Part shown: positions 1,645 through 54,331 of the stretch, piece by piece
Layout of the letters: each line of letters starts with the position of its first letter
How positions within the stretch are numbered: the stretch's first letter is position 1
Source of the DNA: Acholeplasma hippikon
GTDB lineage: Bacteria; Bacillota_I; Bacilli_A; Acholeplasmatales; Acholeplasmataceae
Length of the DNA stretch: 64,000 nt
Assembly (NCBI RefSeq): GCF_900660755.1
Contig: NZ_LR215050.1
Span: 186,001-250,000, forward strand
Direction of reading: 5' to 3'
Notes under the pieces: model-generated
Told to the model about the DNA's origin: nothing
Seen by the model: only the letters and a program-made list of their open reading frames with translations
The model's database searches: none
Translations under genes and position numbers: made by a program

Positions 1645-4572
1645 ATGAGAAAGATACTATTTACATTCATCATGTTACTTATGTTGAGTTTTATGCTTAT
1701 AGCATGTACAACTGATCCAAGTGACAATCCAGATGATGAAAAGCCAATTGAACAAACACCGGGTGAAACAGATCCAGATGATGATAAACCAAAAGATACA
1801 AAAGCGCCAGTTTTTAAAGATATCTATGATGGTTTTTTATCTGATGTTGAACATCTAGCACATATGACATTTGATTTATTCGAGGGTGTTGTAGTGACTG
1901 ATGATGTCACACCATCCAATTCAATTTTATTAGAAATTATTGATGATGGTGGATATCAAAATGATATACCTGGAGTATATACTATTACAATTCAAGCCTC
2001 TGATAATGCAGGTAATAAATCAACTGCAAAAAGAGATGTTTATGTTATCGATGGCTTAATGATTCAAACTTATAAACTATTTATCAACGATGATGAATTA
2101 GCAGTTAGTGTAAACGAAGAAGAAGCACTGATGTATACAAGTTCAGGTACTAAGTTTAGAAGTAAAGATGTTATTCAATTAATGACGAAAGAATTCTTCT
2201 TAGCTGAATATGATAAATATAAAGCAGCGCACACAAACAATGGTGGTGTACCTTATATGAATAATGGTGCATTAATTGTTGTTGATCCTTCAATGAAAAT
2301 TAAACTTGTTAGGGTTTCATCAGGCTCTGTTTTTGAGATTGATGAAAACAATGAAATGAAACAAGATAGCCAATTAAATTGGAACTCAGGTATTAATGCA
2401 AGTTCAGGTAGTGGTATGTTAAAAAATATTCCAACGTTACTTGAAACCTTAATTCCTGAAGGCGGATTTATCATTTTTGCGCCAGGTAAAGATCCATATG
2501 ATGCACGTATGGCTTTAATTAGTAGAGTATTTAGTTCAGTTTATACAACTGGAGCAGTAAATAAAGATATTAGAGATATCGATATTAGAGAAGTGAAAGT
2601 TGATATTCATCAAGATTCTGATTATGTTCCAATGCCACCAAGACTAACTACACCAAGTATTAAATTATACAAAAATATGCTTACATGGGAAGCAATTCCT
2701 AATGCAACTAAATACCTTATCTATGTAGATGGAAAAGAGTTTGCTCAAATTGAAGGAACAAATCTTTCATTAGATTTATTATCTTTAGTAGAATCACCAA
2801 AAAATGGTACAGCTTATGAAATCGAAGTTCAAGCAGTTCCAGATAATACAGGTAAAAATGGATTATCATATCTATCAAATAAAGTGTTATACAAAAAGGT
2901 AACATTTAGTGAAACCCAAACCCCAGTTATTACAAAAAATGGAAATGAAATCTCATGGAACTTAATTGATGGGGCAAGTTCATATGATATTTACTTTACA
3001 ATTGGTACAGTATCTTTAAAAGCAGGTAATGTAACAACAAACGCATTTGACCTTACCACATTTGAAACTTTATTCCCAGGAGTAAGTAAAGTATCAGTTA
3101 TCGCAATAGGCGATGATACACACTTTGATTCAAATGAATCTAATCAAATTGAAGTAACGTTAGGTAAAGTTGAAACATTAGTAATTAACGGTTATAAAGT
3201 TGATGTGTTAAGAACTGGTGCGCTAAATTACTTTGTAAGAAGAAATTTATCTTATGCAACTCAAAACGGCTTTAATGGTGCACCGTACTTATTCTTAATT
3301 GTTGATCCAATGACATTAAATGAATCACATAAAAATGTTGAATTCAAAGAATCATATGGTTCAATTGTTCTATTAGAAAATGATTTCACAGTGAAAATGA
3401 TTAACTCAACTGGTACTGGTAAATCATGGAATATTTTAGATGGTTGGTATCAAAATAAGTTCTATAAATCAAATGCAGAACAAATTGAAAGTATTATACA
3501 TTCAATTTATTCAGGAGATTATTTATTAATTGGTAAATACGCAAACTTATTAAATGTAACAACACCTACAGACAGCGTGATTATAAATGTAGATGCCAGA
3601 GAATTTGTGAACCATTTTTATGTTAAAGATAATGGTGCAGAGTTTAAAGATGAAGCATGGCGTGGTGATATGAGTACTTTCTTAGATCCAAGAAATGTTA
3701 CATTTGAAATTATTGAAAAAGTAATTATTGTTACTGAAAAATTAGAAACACCAGAAATTTCTATTGAAGAAGATATTCTATCATGGGAAGAAATTTCAAA
3801 TGCAGGAACATACTATATTTATGTTGATGGCATAAAAGTTCATGAAACAACAGGTTTATTCATTGATATGAAAGAACTTAACTTAAAAGCTTCTCCAGAT
3901 GGTATTTCATATACTGTGGAAGTGATGGCAATCCCACAAGATATGATTCATTATGAAATTTCAGAAAAATCAAATCAAGTAACTTACGTTCAATTTGGTG
4001 AAGAGGAGCCTGAACAACCAGAGTTCTATACACATATGAAAGTAAATAATGTTGAAGTCGCAGTAACATTTAATATGGAAAATGCCTTCAATAGATTATC
4101 ATCAGGCGCTGCATTCAGATCAAAAGATGAAATTCAAGTGATGACAAAAGAACACTTCTTAGCAGAGTTTGAAAAACATGCGGGTTCATATGCTGATAGC
4201 AATGGTAATGTATTCTTCCCTAATGGAGTTTTACTAATTGTTGATAAAAATCTAAATGTTAAATTATTACGTGTTGGTGTGGGTATCACAGCTGAAGTAA
4301 ATGAAAATGATGAAGTTAAAACATCAAGCTTAGGTTGGGGTAATACACAAGCAACTGGTGGTGGATTTGCAAACCTTGTTGGGGAAAGATTAGAATCATT
4401 AATTCCAGATGGAGGATACTTAATCTTCGCACCTGCAACAACTAATAATATCTCAAGAACTTGGATGGTTAAAAACTTATTCCATTCTGGATACCAATCT
4501 GGTGCTACAGCAGTAGCTAATAAAGATATTAGAGTATCAGAAGTTAAATTAGAACTACTTGATAGAAGTTAA
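1645..4572 (+). CDS. Large multidomain surface lipoprotein (Ig, FN3, repeat modules)
   Basis: A 975-aa exported lipoprotein; role presumably binding or display of glycan substrate (inference). The start at 1645 is chosen over an ATG at 1582 because 1645 has an RBS (GAGGAGAG) and begins a lipoprotein signal peptide with lipobox LIAC (Cys21). Then: an acidic Pro-rich linker (22-50), a DUF5011-like Ig domain (about 53-135), module A (138-329), two FN3-like domains (about 333-420 and 425-507), module B (508-692), a third FN3-like domain (697-783) and a second module A (793-975). Module A has the shared signatures FRSKD, MTKE.FLAE, a LIVDK-like strand and IP(D/E)GG(Y/F). The same modules occur in the lipoprotein at 12579. 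I do not recognise modules A and B. First gene after the operator-bearing promoter at 1554; followed by an SGNH lipoprotein after 19 bases. Confidence 0.75.
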   Translation: MRKILFTFIMLLMLSFMLIACTTDPSDNPDDEKPIEQTPGETDPDDDKPKDTKAPVFKDIYDGFLSDVEHLAHMTFDLFEGVVVTDDVTPSNSILLEIIDDGGYQNDIPGVYTITIQASDNAGNKSTAKRDVYVIDGLMIQTYKLFINDDELAVSVNEEEALMYTSSGTKFRSKDVIQLMTKEFFLAEYDKYKAAHTNNGGVPYMNNGALIVVDPSMKIKLVRVSSGSVFEIDENNEMKQDSQLNWNSGINASSGSGMLKNIPTLLETLIPEGGFIIFAPGKDPYDARMALISRVFSSVYTTGAVNKDIRDIDIREVKVDIHQDSDYVPMPPRLTTPSIKLYKNMLTWEAIPNATKYLIYVDGKEFAQIEGTNLSLDLLSLVESPKNGTAYEIEVQAVPDNTGKNGLSYLSNKVLYKKVTFSETQTPVITKNGNEISWNLIDGASSYDIYFTIGTVSLKAGNVTTNAFDLTTFETLFPGVSKVSVIAIGDDTHFDSNESNQIEVTLGKVETLVINGYKVDVLRTGALNYFVRRNLSYATQNGFNGAPYLFLIVDPMTLNESHKNVEFKESYGSIVLLENDFTVKMINSTGTGKSWNILDGWYQNKFYKSNAEQIESIIHSIYSGDYLLIGKYANLLNVTTPTDSVIINVDAREFVNHFYVKDNGAEFKDEAWRGDMSTFLDPRNVTFEIIEKVIIVTEKLETPEISIEEDILSWEEISNAGTYYIYVDGIKVHETTGLFIDMKELNLKASPDGISYTVEVMAIPQDMIHYEISEKSNQVTYVQFGEEEPEQPEFYTHMKVNNVEVAVTFNMENAFNRLSSGAAFRSKDEIQVMTKEHFLAEFEKHAGSYADSNGNVFFPNGVLLIVDKNLNVKLLRVGVGITAEVNENDEVKTSSLGWGNTQATGGGFANLVGERLESLIPDGGYLIFAPATTNNISRTWMVKNLFHSGYQSGATAVANKDIRVSEVKLELLDRS

Positions 4573-51560: not shown

Positions 51561-51588
51561 TGGCACAGTTAATTACTGTGCCTTTTTT
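51561..51588. terminator. Bidirectional terminator
   Basis: GGCACAGT-TAATT-ACTGTGCC (51562-51582) with T run to the right and A-rich flank to the left; the stop codon of the minus-strand regulator lies in it. Confidence 0.85.
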
Positions 51589-52514
51589 ATACGGTTTTCT
51601 AAATATTCTTTAATAAAAACTTCATATTGAATGTTAAAGTCTTCCTCAATCATTTGATAATAGTTTTTTTGTTTAGCTTCATTGTCTTCAGCATTTAAAA
51701 CGCAGTAGCATCGATAAAGCATCATTTCATATTGTTCAAATTTATTTAGATAATAGTAAGCAAGTGCTGAAAAATAATAGAAGTCTTGAAGTAAATAAGT
51801 ATATCTTAAGTAGTTACAGTATTCAATTCCCTTTTTACAAAATTTTATAACATCTTCAAATTTTCCTTGTGTACCATAATAATCAGACACATAATATAAA
51901 CATAATAGAATTAATCGATCGTTGTGACCACTCACGATCGTTTTTTGTTTGTTTAAGAAATTTTCTAATAATTTAATAACTTTATCTTTTTCTCTAAATG
52001 GTTCAGTTGGTAAAAGTGATGTTAGAAGAATAACCTCAGTTGAAGATAAAATAGATTTTTCAAAAAGTGAATCATAATGAATTAATATTTTTATTTCATC
52101 TATAAAATTTTCTGGACTGATATTTTCTAGATAGTAATCCATTAATAATTTTGAAAACTTAAACATAATAAGATTATTTTGTTCAATGATAAAGTTTTCA
52201 TCAATATCACGGATGATTAAGTTAGCTGCTTGAAAATCTTTGTTTACAACTAAATTATGTAGTGTATTCATCTTTTTTGTTTCAGCGAGTTTAACATTTT
52301 CAAATTCTAATAAAACATGTTCAGGTTTGAATCCTAAACGCGTAGAAAGTTTATTAAAGACAATTTGAGGCATTTGGTATTCTCCACGAATATATCTTCT
52401 AAATTGTCTAATAGAGACAATCTCGTGTGTCAAATCCTCAAGTGTCATCTTTCTTGAGACACGGAGCATATCGAAATAATGTGCAAGTTCTTTTGAGTAA
52501 ATATCTGATTCCAT
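51573..52514 (-). CDS. HTH-TPR regulator, RRNPP-like (PlcR/Rgg architecture)
   Basis: 313 aa, cytoplasmic. An N-terminal XRE-type HTH (about 8-66; MTLEDLTHEIVSIRQFRRYI, then MPQIVFNKLSTRLGF) is followed by about 240 helical residues with TPR-like pairs (for example YYVSDYYGTQGKFEDVIKFC and FYYFSALAYYYLNKFEQYE). Length and layout match PlcR, Rgg and PrgX regulators, which bind re-imported peptides. RBS AAGGAG before the ATG. It is divergent from the exported 71-aa peptide gene at 52608 with only 93 bases between, the classical arrangement for a regulator and its signal. Peptide binding is inferred; the HTH itself is degenerate compared with textbook XRE. Nearest alternative: an unrelated HTH-TPR regulator of a stress gene. 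Confidence 0.75.
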   Translation of the reverse strand: MESDIYSKELAHYFDMLRVSRKMTLEDLTHEIVSIRQFRRYIRGEYQMPQIVFNKLSTRLGFKPEHVLLEFENVKLAETKKMNTLHNLVVNKDFQAANLIIRDIDENFIIEQNNLIMFKFSKLLMDYYLENISPENFIDEIKILIHYDSLFEKSILSSTEVILLTSLLPTEPFREKDKVIKLLENFLNKQKTIVSGHNDRLILLCLYYVSDYYGTQGKFEDVIKFCKKGIEYCNYLRYTYLLQDFYYFSALAYYYLNKFEQYEMMLYRCYCVLNAEDNEAKQKNYYQMIEEDFNIQYEVFIKEYLENRIKKAQ

Positions 52515-52540
52515 AATAAAACTCCTTGTTGTTTGAATAG

Positions 52541-52607
52541 GACAGTTTTGCCCTGTTTGAAAATGCCCTTTAAAACTAAAATCTTACACGCAACGGGGGG
52601 ATTTAAG
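52541..52607 (+). promoter_or_regulatory. Divergent control region of the peptide locus
   Basis: Contains the dyad ACAG-TTTTGCC-CTGT (52542-52556) and the partial repeat GTTTTGCCCT/GAAAATGCCCT, plausible regulator-binding elements. TTGAAA (52557-52562) and TAAAAT (52577-52582) are only 14 bases apart, so the promoter is not clearly resolved. ACGGGGGG (52593-52600) is a strong RBS for the TTG start at 52608. Confidence 0.4.
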
Positions 52608-52823
52608 TTGAAAAAGGGAATAAGTAAGATTGGGCTTTTGTTCTTGATTGGAGTACCTATGTCATTGATAGGGTTTAATCAGTTAAAACATCCTGAGATT
52701 ATCATTGATGAAAGTCAAATGAACATAGATGACTTAGGGTTTGGATCAAAGGGTAAGCACCCTGAGATCGTCGAGGTAACTGTTAGTATTGATGTTAAAG
52801 ATGATTTAACAGTTGATGTATAA
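52608..52823 (+). CDS. Small exported peptide precursor with two KHPEI copies
   Basis: 71 aa from TTG 52608, chosen because GGGGGG lies seven bases upstream and a basic-hydrophobic export signal follows at once (KKGISKIGLLFLIGVPMSLIGF). A longer frame from 52533 has no RBS and would spoil that signal. The mature part holds QLKHPEIII and GKHPEIVEV, two copies of K-H-P-E-I, separated by an acidic stretch, and ends VKDDLTVDV. The copies use different codons (AAA/AAG, CAT/CAC, ATT/ATC), so the peptide and not the DNA is conserved. No family recognised. Divergent from an HTH-TPR regulator. A pro-peptide for a secreted signal is inferred; a small surface peptide of another kind is possible. Confidence 0.6.
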   Translation: MKKGISKIGLLFLIGVPMSLIGFNQLKHPEIIIDESQMNIDDLGFGSKGKHPEIVEVTVSIDVKDDLTVDV

Positions 52824-52892: not shown

Positions 52893-53036
52893 CTAATTAA
52901 TTTTAAAAAAATTAGTTAGAGGTAGCTGGTTTGTTTGTGGGGAATAAGCCAGCTACACTTTAGTGTGGTGTGGGACGTGGGGGTCTGTAGCATCTGAGAA
53001 AGAAAATAGAACTTAAAACAGGTGATTTTTAAGTTC
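52893..53036 (+). ncRNA. Structured-RNA candidate in the 377-base gap 52824-53200
   Basis: Three strong hairpins in a row: 52893-52919 (12 bp, one wobble, CTAATTAATTTT arm), 52922-52956 (GTAGCTGG/CCAGCTAC) and 53009-53036 (GAACTTAAAA/TTTTAAGTTC). Between them lies a G-rich segment (about 52965-52990) unlike the AT-rich surroundings. No known riboswitch or T-box consensus was recognised. The last hairpin stands directly before an RBS and a 17-codon ORF. It may be a regulatory leader or a small RNA. The rest of the gap (53106-53132) is plain AT-rich sequence. Confidence 0.4.
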
Positions 53037-53051
53037 AAGAAGGAGAAGTAT

Positions 53052-53105
53052 ATGGTACATAAAATACATATACTTTTTTCTTTTTATATAACTTTATACT
53101 TTTAA
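53052..53105 (+). CDS. Short hydrophobic ORF (17 aa)
   Basis: Encodes MVHKIHILFSFYITLYF, preceded by a good RBS (AAGAAGGAGA, about 6 bases before ATG). Hydrophobic with two His and one Lys at the N-terminus, the size of Rgg-type short hydrophobic peptides or leader peptides. Too short to be judged by coding statistics; the strong RBS after a hairpin is the main support. Confidence 0.3.
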   Translation: MVHKIHILFSFYITLYF

Positions 53106-53132
53106 AAAAATGATTAATTTTCTTAGTATTTG

Positions 53133-53163
53133 TTGAGTATTTTTAAGATAAAAATGATATGAT
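53133..53163 (+). promoter_or_regulatory. Extended -10 promoter of the EIIC-like gene
   Basis: TGATATGAT (53155-53163) with a TTGAGT (53133-53138) 19 bases before the hexamer. Confidence 0.45.
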
Positions 53164-53200
53164 TTATTATGGTCAATTTATTTGCAAAGGATGATGAGAG

Positions 53201-54331
53201 ATGAATGAAACCGTTGATCAAAAAAGTAAGAAAAGCGCAGAAGTAAAGAGTTTTTTATATAAATCACTTAATGCGATGACATTTGGTATTTTTGGTACGA
53301 TTGTTGTCGGCGCGATTATTCAAACTTTAGGTGTTGTAACAGGAATTGCAGCACTTGGCAGGTTATCTGCAATTCTTACAAGTTTACTTGGGATGGGGAT
53401 TGGATTAAGTATTGGATTAGCACTTAAAGTAGATGGCTTAAAGTTAGTTATGCTATCTGTTGCTGGTGGTATTGCAACACAATTTGGTGTTGATTTTAGT
53501 ATGGAAGGTTGGTTGAATCCAACAAAAGTGCCAAATAACCCAGTAACTGCGTATTTAGTTGTTGTCGCAGTATATTTTGTTATAAAGTACGTATTTAGAA
53601 AGAAAACTGCGTATGATTTATTCTTTATTCCGTTAGTCACATCGTTATCAGCTTTATTTGCCGTGTATTTATTCTCATGGCCAATTGATAAATTAATGGA
53701 AGCAATTTATGCAACAATTAAGTTCTTTATGACTTCAGAGCCATATTTAACTTCAGCATTTGTTGGATTAATCTTTGGTATTTTATTAACTTTACCGTTT
53801 ATTTCAAGTGCAGGAGTTGCTATTGCAGTATTTACAGTACCATTTAAAGCGAATGATCCAATTGCGATTATTGCAATGTGTGCTGCAGTTGTTGGATGTA
53901 CTGCACAAATGGTTGGATTTGCAATTCAATCAACAAGAAAAAATGATATTGGAACAATTTTTACAATTGGTGTAGCAAGTTCAATGTTCCAATTTAAAAA
54001 TGTTATGAAAAAACTTATTACTTGGGTTCCAACATTAATTGCTTCATTTGTGTTACCACCATTATGCTATTTATTATTTGGTGGTTATGGTTGGTTTATT
54101 AATGGAATTCCAGCAGGACACAGTTTTACAGCAGCATGGCCAGGAATGGGTTCAAGTGGTATTGTTGGTCAACTTCAAGTATTAACAATTGGTAACTTTA
54201 GCGTAGAAGCTTGGTTATTCGTTGCTGCACAAGTGTTATTACCTGCAGTTTTAGTATTTGGATTAGATACATTGTTTATCAAATTAAAATGGTACGAGTC
54301 AACTGATTTGATTTTAGATGCCTCATTGTAA
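53201..54331 (+). CDS. PTS EIIC-like membrane transporter (PTS_EIIC_2 type)
   Basis: 376 aa with 9-10 membrane helices. ALGRLSAILTSLLGMGIGLSI, repeated GG and GxGxG segments and LPFISSAGVAIAVF match the PF13303 group of EIIC-like proteins. No EIIA or EIIB domain and no such gene nearby, so it may not be a phosphotransferase. RBS AAAGGATGATGAGAG. Own promoter and terminator. Substrate unknown; the neighbour pncB is not evidence enough for a vitamin. Confidence 0.78.
   Translation: MNETVDQKSKKSAEVKSFLYKSLNAMTFGIFGTIVVGAIIQTLGVVTGIAALGRLSAILTSLLGMGIGLSIGLALKVDGLKLVMLSVAGGIATQFGVDFSMEGWLNPTKVPNNPVTAYLVVVAVYFVIKYVFRKKTAYDLFFIPLVTSLSALFAVYLFSWPIDKLMEAIYATIKFFMTSEPYLTSAFVGLIFGILLTLPFISSAGVAIAVFTVPFKANDPIAIIAMCAAVVGCTAQMVGFAIQSTRKNDIGTIFTIGVASSMFQFKNVMKKLITWVPTLIASFVLPPLCYLLFGGYGWFINGIPAGHSFTAAWPGMGSSGIVGQLQVLTIGNFSVEAWLFVAAQVLLPAVLVFGLDTLFIKLKWYESTDLILDASL

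Follow-up and report, generated by a model that had tools for sequence, protein, structure and literature searches.

Does a regulator gene of Acholeplasma hippikon, together with the small open reading frame divergent from it, form a peptide quorum-sensing pair? The window, the whole stretch of 64,000 nucleotides that was analysed, covers bases 186001-250000 of contig C1 in a genome of 1.47 Mb. We consider it very probable that the two genes encode an autoinducing peptide quorum-sensing system of the RRNPP type, and that they belong to a new subfamily in the Mycoplasmatota and neighbouring lineages. The computation supports this reading through the fold class of the regulator, the conserved pairing, the peptide core, an operator with fixed spacing and the presence of Opp genes. 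From these we infer export, processing, import and binding of the peptide, the direction of regulation and a dependence on cell density. The features of the locus are the following.

51573..52514, minus strand: regulator (receptor) gene, 313 aa, ATG start, from the ORF call; XRE-type HTH at about residues 6-60 and an all-helical TPR-like C-terminal domain in the AlphaFold2 model
52539..52554, no strand assigned: predicted operator AGGACAGTTTTGCCCT, consensus RGGRCR-N4-YGYCCY, half-sites AGGRCA, from motif conservation
52577..52582, plus strand: -10 element TAAAAT of the propeptide promoter, its centre 33 bp from the operator centre
52595..52600, plus strand: Shine-Dalgarno sequence GGGGGG of the propeptide gene, from the sequence
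52608..52823, plus strand: propeptide gene, 71 aa, TTG start, MKKGISKIGLLFLIGVPMSLIGFNQLKHPEIIIDESQMNIDDLGFGSKGKHPEIVEVTVSIDVKDDLTVDV, from the sequence and as a conserved divergent small ORF
52608..52670, plus strand: signal-peptide-like N-terminus, MKK and a hydrophobic stretch (residues 1-21), from hydropathy; also in 48 of 65 homologues
52671..52700, plus strand: first core copy GFNQLKHPEI (residues 22-31), aligned with GFNSNKQPEI (L051) and GFEAKHPEI (L002)
52734..52775, plus strand: second core copy LGFGSKGKHPEIVE (residues 43-56), the family-wide signal core, with LDFGNGKQPEIIE in L051, LGFGDKGHPEIFE in L002 and LGFGEDTEPEIVE in L004
52922..52956, plus strand: terminator-like hairpin after the propeptide gene

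The window regulator had no Pfam or NCBIfam match of its own. In a family-model search HTH_3 was matched by 27 of 35 members (best 1.9e-5), and Pfam RNPP_C by only one of the 35 (7.4e-5), which was not the window protein. A sequence search of the PDB with the regulator was discarded, as it returned kinesin light chain TPR noise only. The AlphaFold model, built from the 35 relatives, reached a pLDDT of 92, with HTH helices at residues 2-59 and an all-helical C-terminal part. Using Foldseek against the PDB, we found PlcR as the best match (2.3e-6), and every one of the 23 matches with E<=0.001 was PlcR, ComR, PrgX, Rgg or an RRNPP-like Listeria regulator. A second structural aligner ranked three PlcR entries first (Z 17.4, 16.4 and 15.9), followed by Rgg3 (14.2), ComR (13.3), PrgX (12.7) and generic TPR proteins at about 12. 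NprR was absent among the structural matches listed, which proves nothing. The model aligns over its full length with DNA-bound PlcR and ComR. The full-length rmsd to the structural matches is 8-10 Å, as expected if the HTH domain shifts relative to the TPR domain; the TPR part alone fits apo PlcR (4fsc) with 3.4 Å over 219 residues. An N-terminal XRE-type HTH typifies RRNPP(A) receptors, Rap excepted, and the HTH_3 matches, the model and the structural alignment all place one in this family. The C-terminal part appears, from the model and its structural matches, to be a receptor-type TPR-like superhelix. Hence the preliminary description, which had seen a 313-aa HTH and TPR-like protein of RRNPP build, was right about the gene and its domains, and the modelled fold points to the same regulator group, with PlcR closest.

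The two genes are divergent and separated by 93 bp (52515-52607). The preliminary description had also placed a 71-aa ORF with a strong ribosome-binding site and two copies of KHPEI at this distance, which the sequence bears out, and its export signal corresponds to the signal-peptide-like N-terminus. Signal peptides were judged by hydropathy throughout, not by a trained predictor. An alternative, longer ORF of 96 aa from a TTG at 52533 would overlap the operator and would not use the GGGGGG at 52595-52600; a similar ribosome-binding motif stands upstream of nearly all exported family members. The first KHPEI copy (residues 27-31, 52686-52700) reads AAA CAT CCT GAG ATT and the second (residues 50-54, 52755-52769) AAG CAC CCT GAG ATC, so that three of five codons differ by synonymous changes. 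This count stands as first described; selection on the peptide, which had been read from it, finds weak evidence in these codons alone and stronger evidence in the conservation among relatives. The two remaining KHPEI-coding sites found by a pattern search of the genome lie inside lipoate-protein ligase-like and SufS-like desulfurase ORFs. As these are ordinary enzymes, the occurrence of two copies within 71 residues is a local feature.

The terminator-like hairpin suggests that the propeptide transcript is monocistronic. A PTS EIIC gene starts at 53201, 377 bp beyond the propeptide gene. Further possible hairpins, possibly leader RNA, precede it at 52957-53200 of the window (for example at about 53046-53078); a search of Rfam gave no RNA family in the region.

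We then compared the locus with its relatives, taken from whole genomes and named contigs, mostly of Acholeplasmataceae, with other Mycoplasmatota, Izimaplasma and some Bacillota-labelled bins in addition. An automatic scan (<=220 bp) found a divergent small ORF of signal-peptide-like type in 49 of the 65 homologues whose upstream DNA was long enough. One of the 49, in L030, was judged spurious, having no ribosome-binding site. Inspection of the remaining homologues by eye added eight ORFs without a leader and two exported ones truncated where their contigs end. In total, 58 of 65 homologues carry a divergent small ORF (48 exported, two exported but contig-cut, eight leaderless), at about 80-145 bp from the regulator start. 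The preliminary description had held that absence or displacement of the small ORF in relatives would speak against a pair; it is neither absent nor shifted. Such ORFs occurred upstream of 8 of 151 other long genes used as a control, a contrast with 58 of 65 that is descriptive and carries no p-value, since the loci are related and the total comes partly from inspection. In a wider class-level set, in which a few loci recur from the first, 30 of 40 scanned upstream regions had such an ORF. A gene for a small exported propeptide next to the receptor, which is a further feature of RRNPP(A) systems, is thus found at 52608-52823 of the window, with export judged as above. The comparison with relatives supports the proposal of a peptide-signalling pair made in the preliminary description.

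The same genome holds a second pair, L031, in G000:C1:572200-579200 (regulator at 2999-3940, plus strand, from about 575198), with a divergent peptide of 60 aa ending in VQVGFDDVGPDLRNPIGKIEFAGGF and the operator GCGACATATATGTCGT. Downstream of its peptide come a NUDIX-like gene and a membrane protein, the arrangement also seen in genome G002. In L032 (4997-5887) an identical propeptide gene (GYIEDVGLPDGPGR) stands three times in tandem, 366 bp apart, near two family regulators.

The peptides vary almost everywhere, and most keep a core of about [LIVM]-[DG]-[FY]-x(4-5)-P-[ED]-hydrophobic. On the tree, L051, L002 and L003 are the closest relatives (support 100/96). Besides the copies aligned above, in the order GFNSNKQPEI before the longer copy in L051 and GFEAKHPEI before it in L002, L003 carries FGNGKQPEIIE. 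The preliminary description had asked whether KHPEI or its flank is kept while the rest varies: KQPEI/KHPEI-type motifs occur twice in the two nearest relatives, with variable spacers. Motif and flank are therefore conserved. The pentapeptide as the conserved unit does not hold, and from the alignments KHPEI is the version that the window clade has of a longer core, about [DG]F-x(4-5)-PE-hydrophobic. In most close alignable pairs core identity was 0.82-1.00 against 0.35-0.60 in the spacers; for the window the values were 0.67 and 0.21 against L051, and 0.76 and 0.28 against L002. These identities illustrate the pattern and form no independent test, because the core was picked from the same sequences. 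For the close pair L072/L076 there was no core excess and the comparison was reversed: unequal copy numbers in the two arrays throw the global alignment out of phase. The peptides of L020, L025, L042 and others fit the core poorly. By sequence alone, receptor and peptide codiverge weakly across the whole set (Mantel r 0.26), and distant pairs show no codivergence.

Many relatives carry tandem identical copies of the core, up to ten in L140, nine in L115 and eight in L008; the window propeptide has two non-identical copies only. Most tandem precursors belong to a single clade of the tree, and the leaderless ones take two changes to explain. In L015 a second small leaderless ORF, at about 593-796 bp from the regulator start, directly follows a six-copy propeptide and carries three SK-GF-NSGLPETIEF-like units.

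The intergenic region, 52515-52607, also contains the conserved predicted operator. Its motif was found exactly in 27 of 67 intergenic regions of the family and in 0.1% of dinucleotide-shuffled sequences; with up to two mismatches allowed, the figures are 52 of 67 and 2.1%. The best -10 hexamer lay exactly 33 bp from the operator, centre to centre, in 37 of 52 family members. Nine cases were scored at 28; in most of them the scan settled on GATAAT, which in GATAATACAAT precedes by 5 bp the TACAAT at 33. The propeptide promoter of the window has no good -35, and across the family the -35 hexamer mostly matches at two or three of six positions. With 33 bp between the centres, the operator lies near -42, where class-II activators sit, and this layout together with the poor -35 is consistent with promoters of the class-II type. 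In other subgroups this position is taken by palindromes of another sequence (CGACATATATGTCG, AGTCCATATGTGGACT and AGGCCAAAATTGGCCT). These apparently follow changes in the recognition helix, with SxRQYRRY accompanying GGACA and SNRQYQRY accompanying CGACA, a coupling read by eye from the alignment.

Throughout the genome, 52539-52554 is the sole exact operator site, and sites with one mismatch are about as frequent as in the control. The one-mismatch site that was read in sequence, at 433817 (AAAAAGGACATTTACGTCCTTTTT), resembles a terminator hairpin between genes. A composite of operator and -10 gave one exact match, the window locus, and two sites at two mismatches, one of which coincides with the promoter between the two genes of the second pair (L031); at three mismatches the counts were at control level. 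The other two-mismatch site, G000:C1:825909-825952, is a possible second target. By these operator and composite searches, no target gene beyond the pair is evident in this genome. In relatives, recurrent genes follow the peptide gene: two small membrane proteins and a nitroreductase-like protein in one subgroup, a NUDIX-like protein and a membrane protein in another, and a sigma-70-like factor with nucleotidyltransferase-domain proteins in a further one. A large lipoteichoic-acid-synthase-like protein follows the leaderless peptides. Downstream genes that had no Pfam match were named from their sequence. In L033, L038 and L039 a sigma-70-region-4 protein, a small membrane protein and nucleotidyltransferase-domain proteins stand in an operon after the peptide gene, and related proteins are also found near L051. 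The small ORFs of L053, L055, L057, L061, L069, L075 and L079 are leaderless, most of them with the core, and all precede the lipoteichoic-acid-synthase-like protein of about 680-720 aa.

The genome has a gene for an OppA-like binding protein followed in a row by OppB-, OppC- and OppD-type genes, the latter three named from their sequences. It also encodes a signal peptidase and M50 proteases. The presence of these genes does not show their use. In the proposed circuit, the small ORF would encode a propeptide exported by Sec. A short peptide would then be cut out of the [DG]F-x(4-5)-PE-hydrophobic core, either extracellularly or at the membrane, and the window propeptide could yield two variants, both with KHPEI. 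The peptide would re-enter via the Opp oligopeptide permease and bind the regulator on the concave side of its TPR-like domain. The peptide-loaded dimer may then activate the propeptide promoter from the operator near -42, giving positive feedback, and may limit the divergent transcription of the regulator itself.

Other explanations of the locus can be given. That a small ORF stands by chance beside an ordinary XRE regulator was conceivable, as signal-peptide-like ORFs diverge from about one in twenty of the control genes (8 of 151); the pairing at similar distance in 58 of 65 homologues, with core and operator conserved, already refutes this, and we give it practically no credence. The ORF might instead encode an exported effector, a bacteriocin-like, membrane-active or surface peptide, with the regulator as a local factor that senses something else. 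An export-type peptide with a dedicated adjacent regulator would fit such an effector, as would an operator that, as far as visible, controls only this locus. We regard it as quite unlikely, because the regulator has the fold of peptide-pheromone receptors and because the peptides of many relatives consist of acidic repeats, 13 residues long and identical, which sets them apart from cationic membrane-active peptides. Moreover, eight relatives have no leader, yet several of these keep the core (FSDVGSPEIV, WIGDPEFI and CGEPELF).

Those eight ORFs could not use a leader-type export route, and they lend some weight to a private circuit, intracellular or coupled to export, in which the regulator would detect the peptide of its own pair, either still unexported or as what is left of the signal peptide, and would report the state of Sec or of the membrane and not cell density. 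The failure to find a target outside the pair in this genome agrees with such a circuit. However, a leader is retained by most members, and in several the exported portion is repeated in tandem, as would suit a signal acting outside the cell; Opp genes are also present, and we therefore hold a private circuit to be improbable. An arbitrium-like phage system is unsupported, as no homologues were found in viral contigs, phages or plasmids. Quorum sensing by an exported and re-imported peptide is thus the reading that we prefer.

Among known systems, PlcR-PapR of the Bacillus cereus group is the closest. It shares with the window pair an HTH and TPR receptor, here the best structural match, an adjacent small exported propeptide, and an operator that precedes the -10, as would fit activation with positive feedback. 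The sequence identity between PlcR and the window regulator is 14-15%. While papR lies downstream of plcR in the same direction, the window propeptide is divergent, 93 bp from the receptor start. The PlcR box is TATGNAN4TNCATA and the window operator is of the AGGRCA-N4-TGYCCT type; likewise, the [DG]F..PEI core is unlike the LPFEF type of PapR. As gene order and operator differ, the window pair should not be filed as PlcR.

The active form of NprX of Bacillus, SKPDIVG, resembles KHPEIVE of the window in [KH]-P-[DE]-I-V, a likeness of few residues that may be convergence. NprR is larger than the window regulator. The Rgg-SHP and ComR-ComS systems of streptococci have HTH-TPR receptors that are among the structural matches, and some Rgg/SHP pairs are divergent. 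Their signals are short hydrophobic peptides exported by PptAB, unlike those of the window, and no repeat precursors were found for them in PMC9765709. For NprR-NprX, multi-copy precursors are known (PMC9765709), and the string SKPDIVG occurs in PMC5641580, PMC4970707 and PMC4147580. The Alo systems of Paenibacillus (AloR-AloP, PMC7425212) likewise form a large HTH-TPR family with adjacent exported peptides and many paralogues; aloP lies immediately downstream of aloR (PMC7425212), whereas the window propeptide is divergent, and the lineage differs. Repeated pheromone units in one precursor, as in relatives of the window, are known from multi-copy RRNPPA propeptides (PMC9765709, PMC11343458), with up to six copies (PMC9765709) compared to eight, nine and ten identical copies here. 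The main text of two large RRNPP surveys (PMC9765709, PMC10075063) does not mention Mollicutes, Tenericutes or Mycoplasma, and we found no report of peptide signalling in Acholeplasma or mollicutes in the open-access literature. The fold and the logic are already known; the lineage, the divergent layout, the shared core, the large arrays and the leaderless variants together set the system apart.

Overall, the pairing, the promoter layout and the peptide motif recur in dozens of relatives, so that these mollicutes probably signal to one another by peptides. It seems fairly likely that the pair belongs to an ancient and large peptide quorum-sensing family of wall-less bacteria and their relatives, with a shared core and many private dialects present from a single copy to ten. 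The same reading takes in the leaderless variants, operators that diversify with the recognition helix and class-II autoactivation, the window being the KHPEI dialect. Since genes, operator and peptide core are all predicted from sequence, the system is testable at once in cultivable Acholeplasma. The tandem arrays offer a natural series of pheromone dose and dialect. If our reading is true, even reduced, wall-less bacteria talk by peptides.
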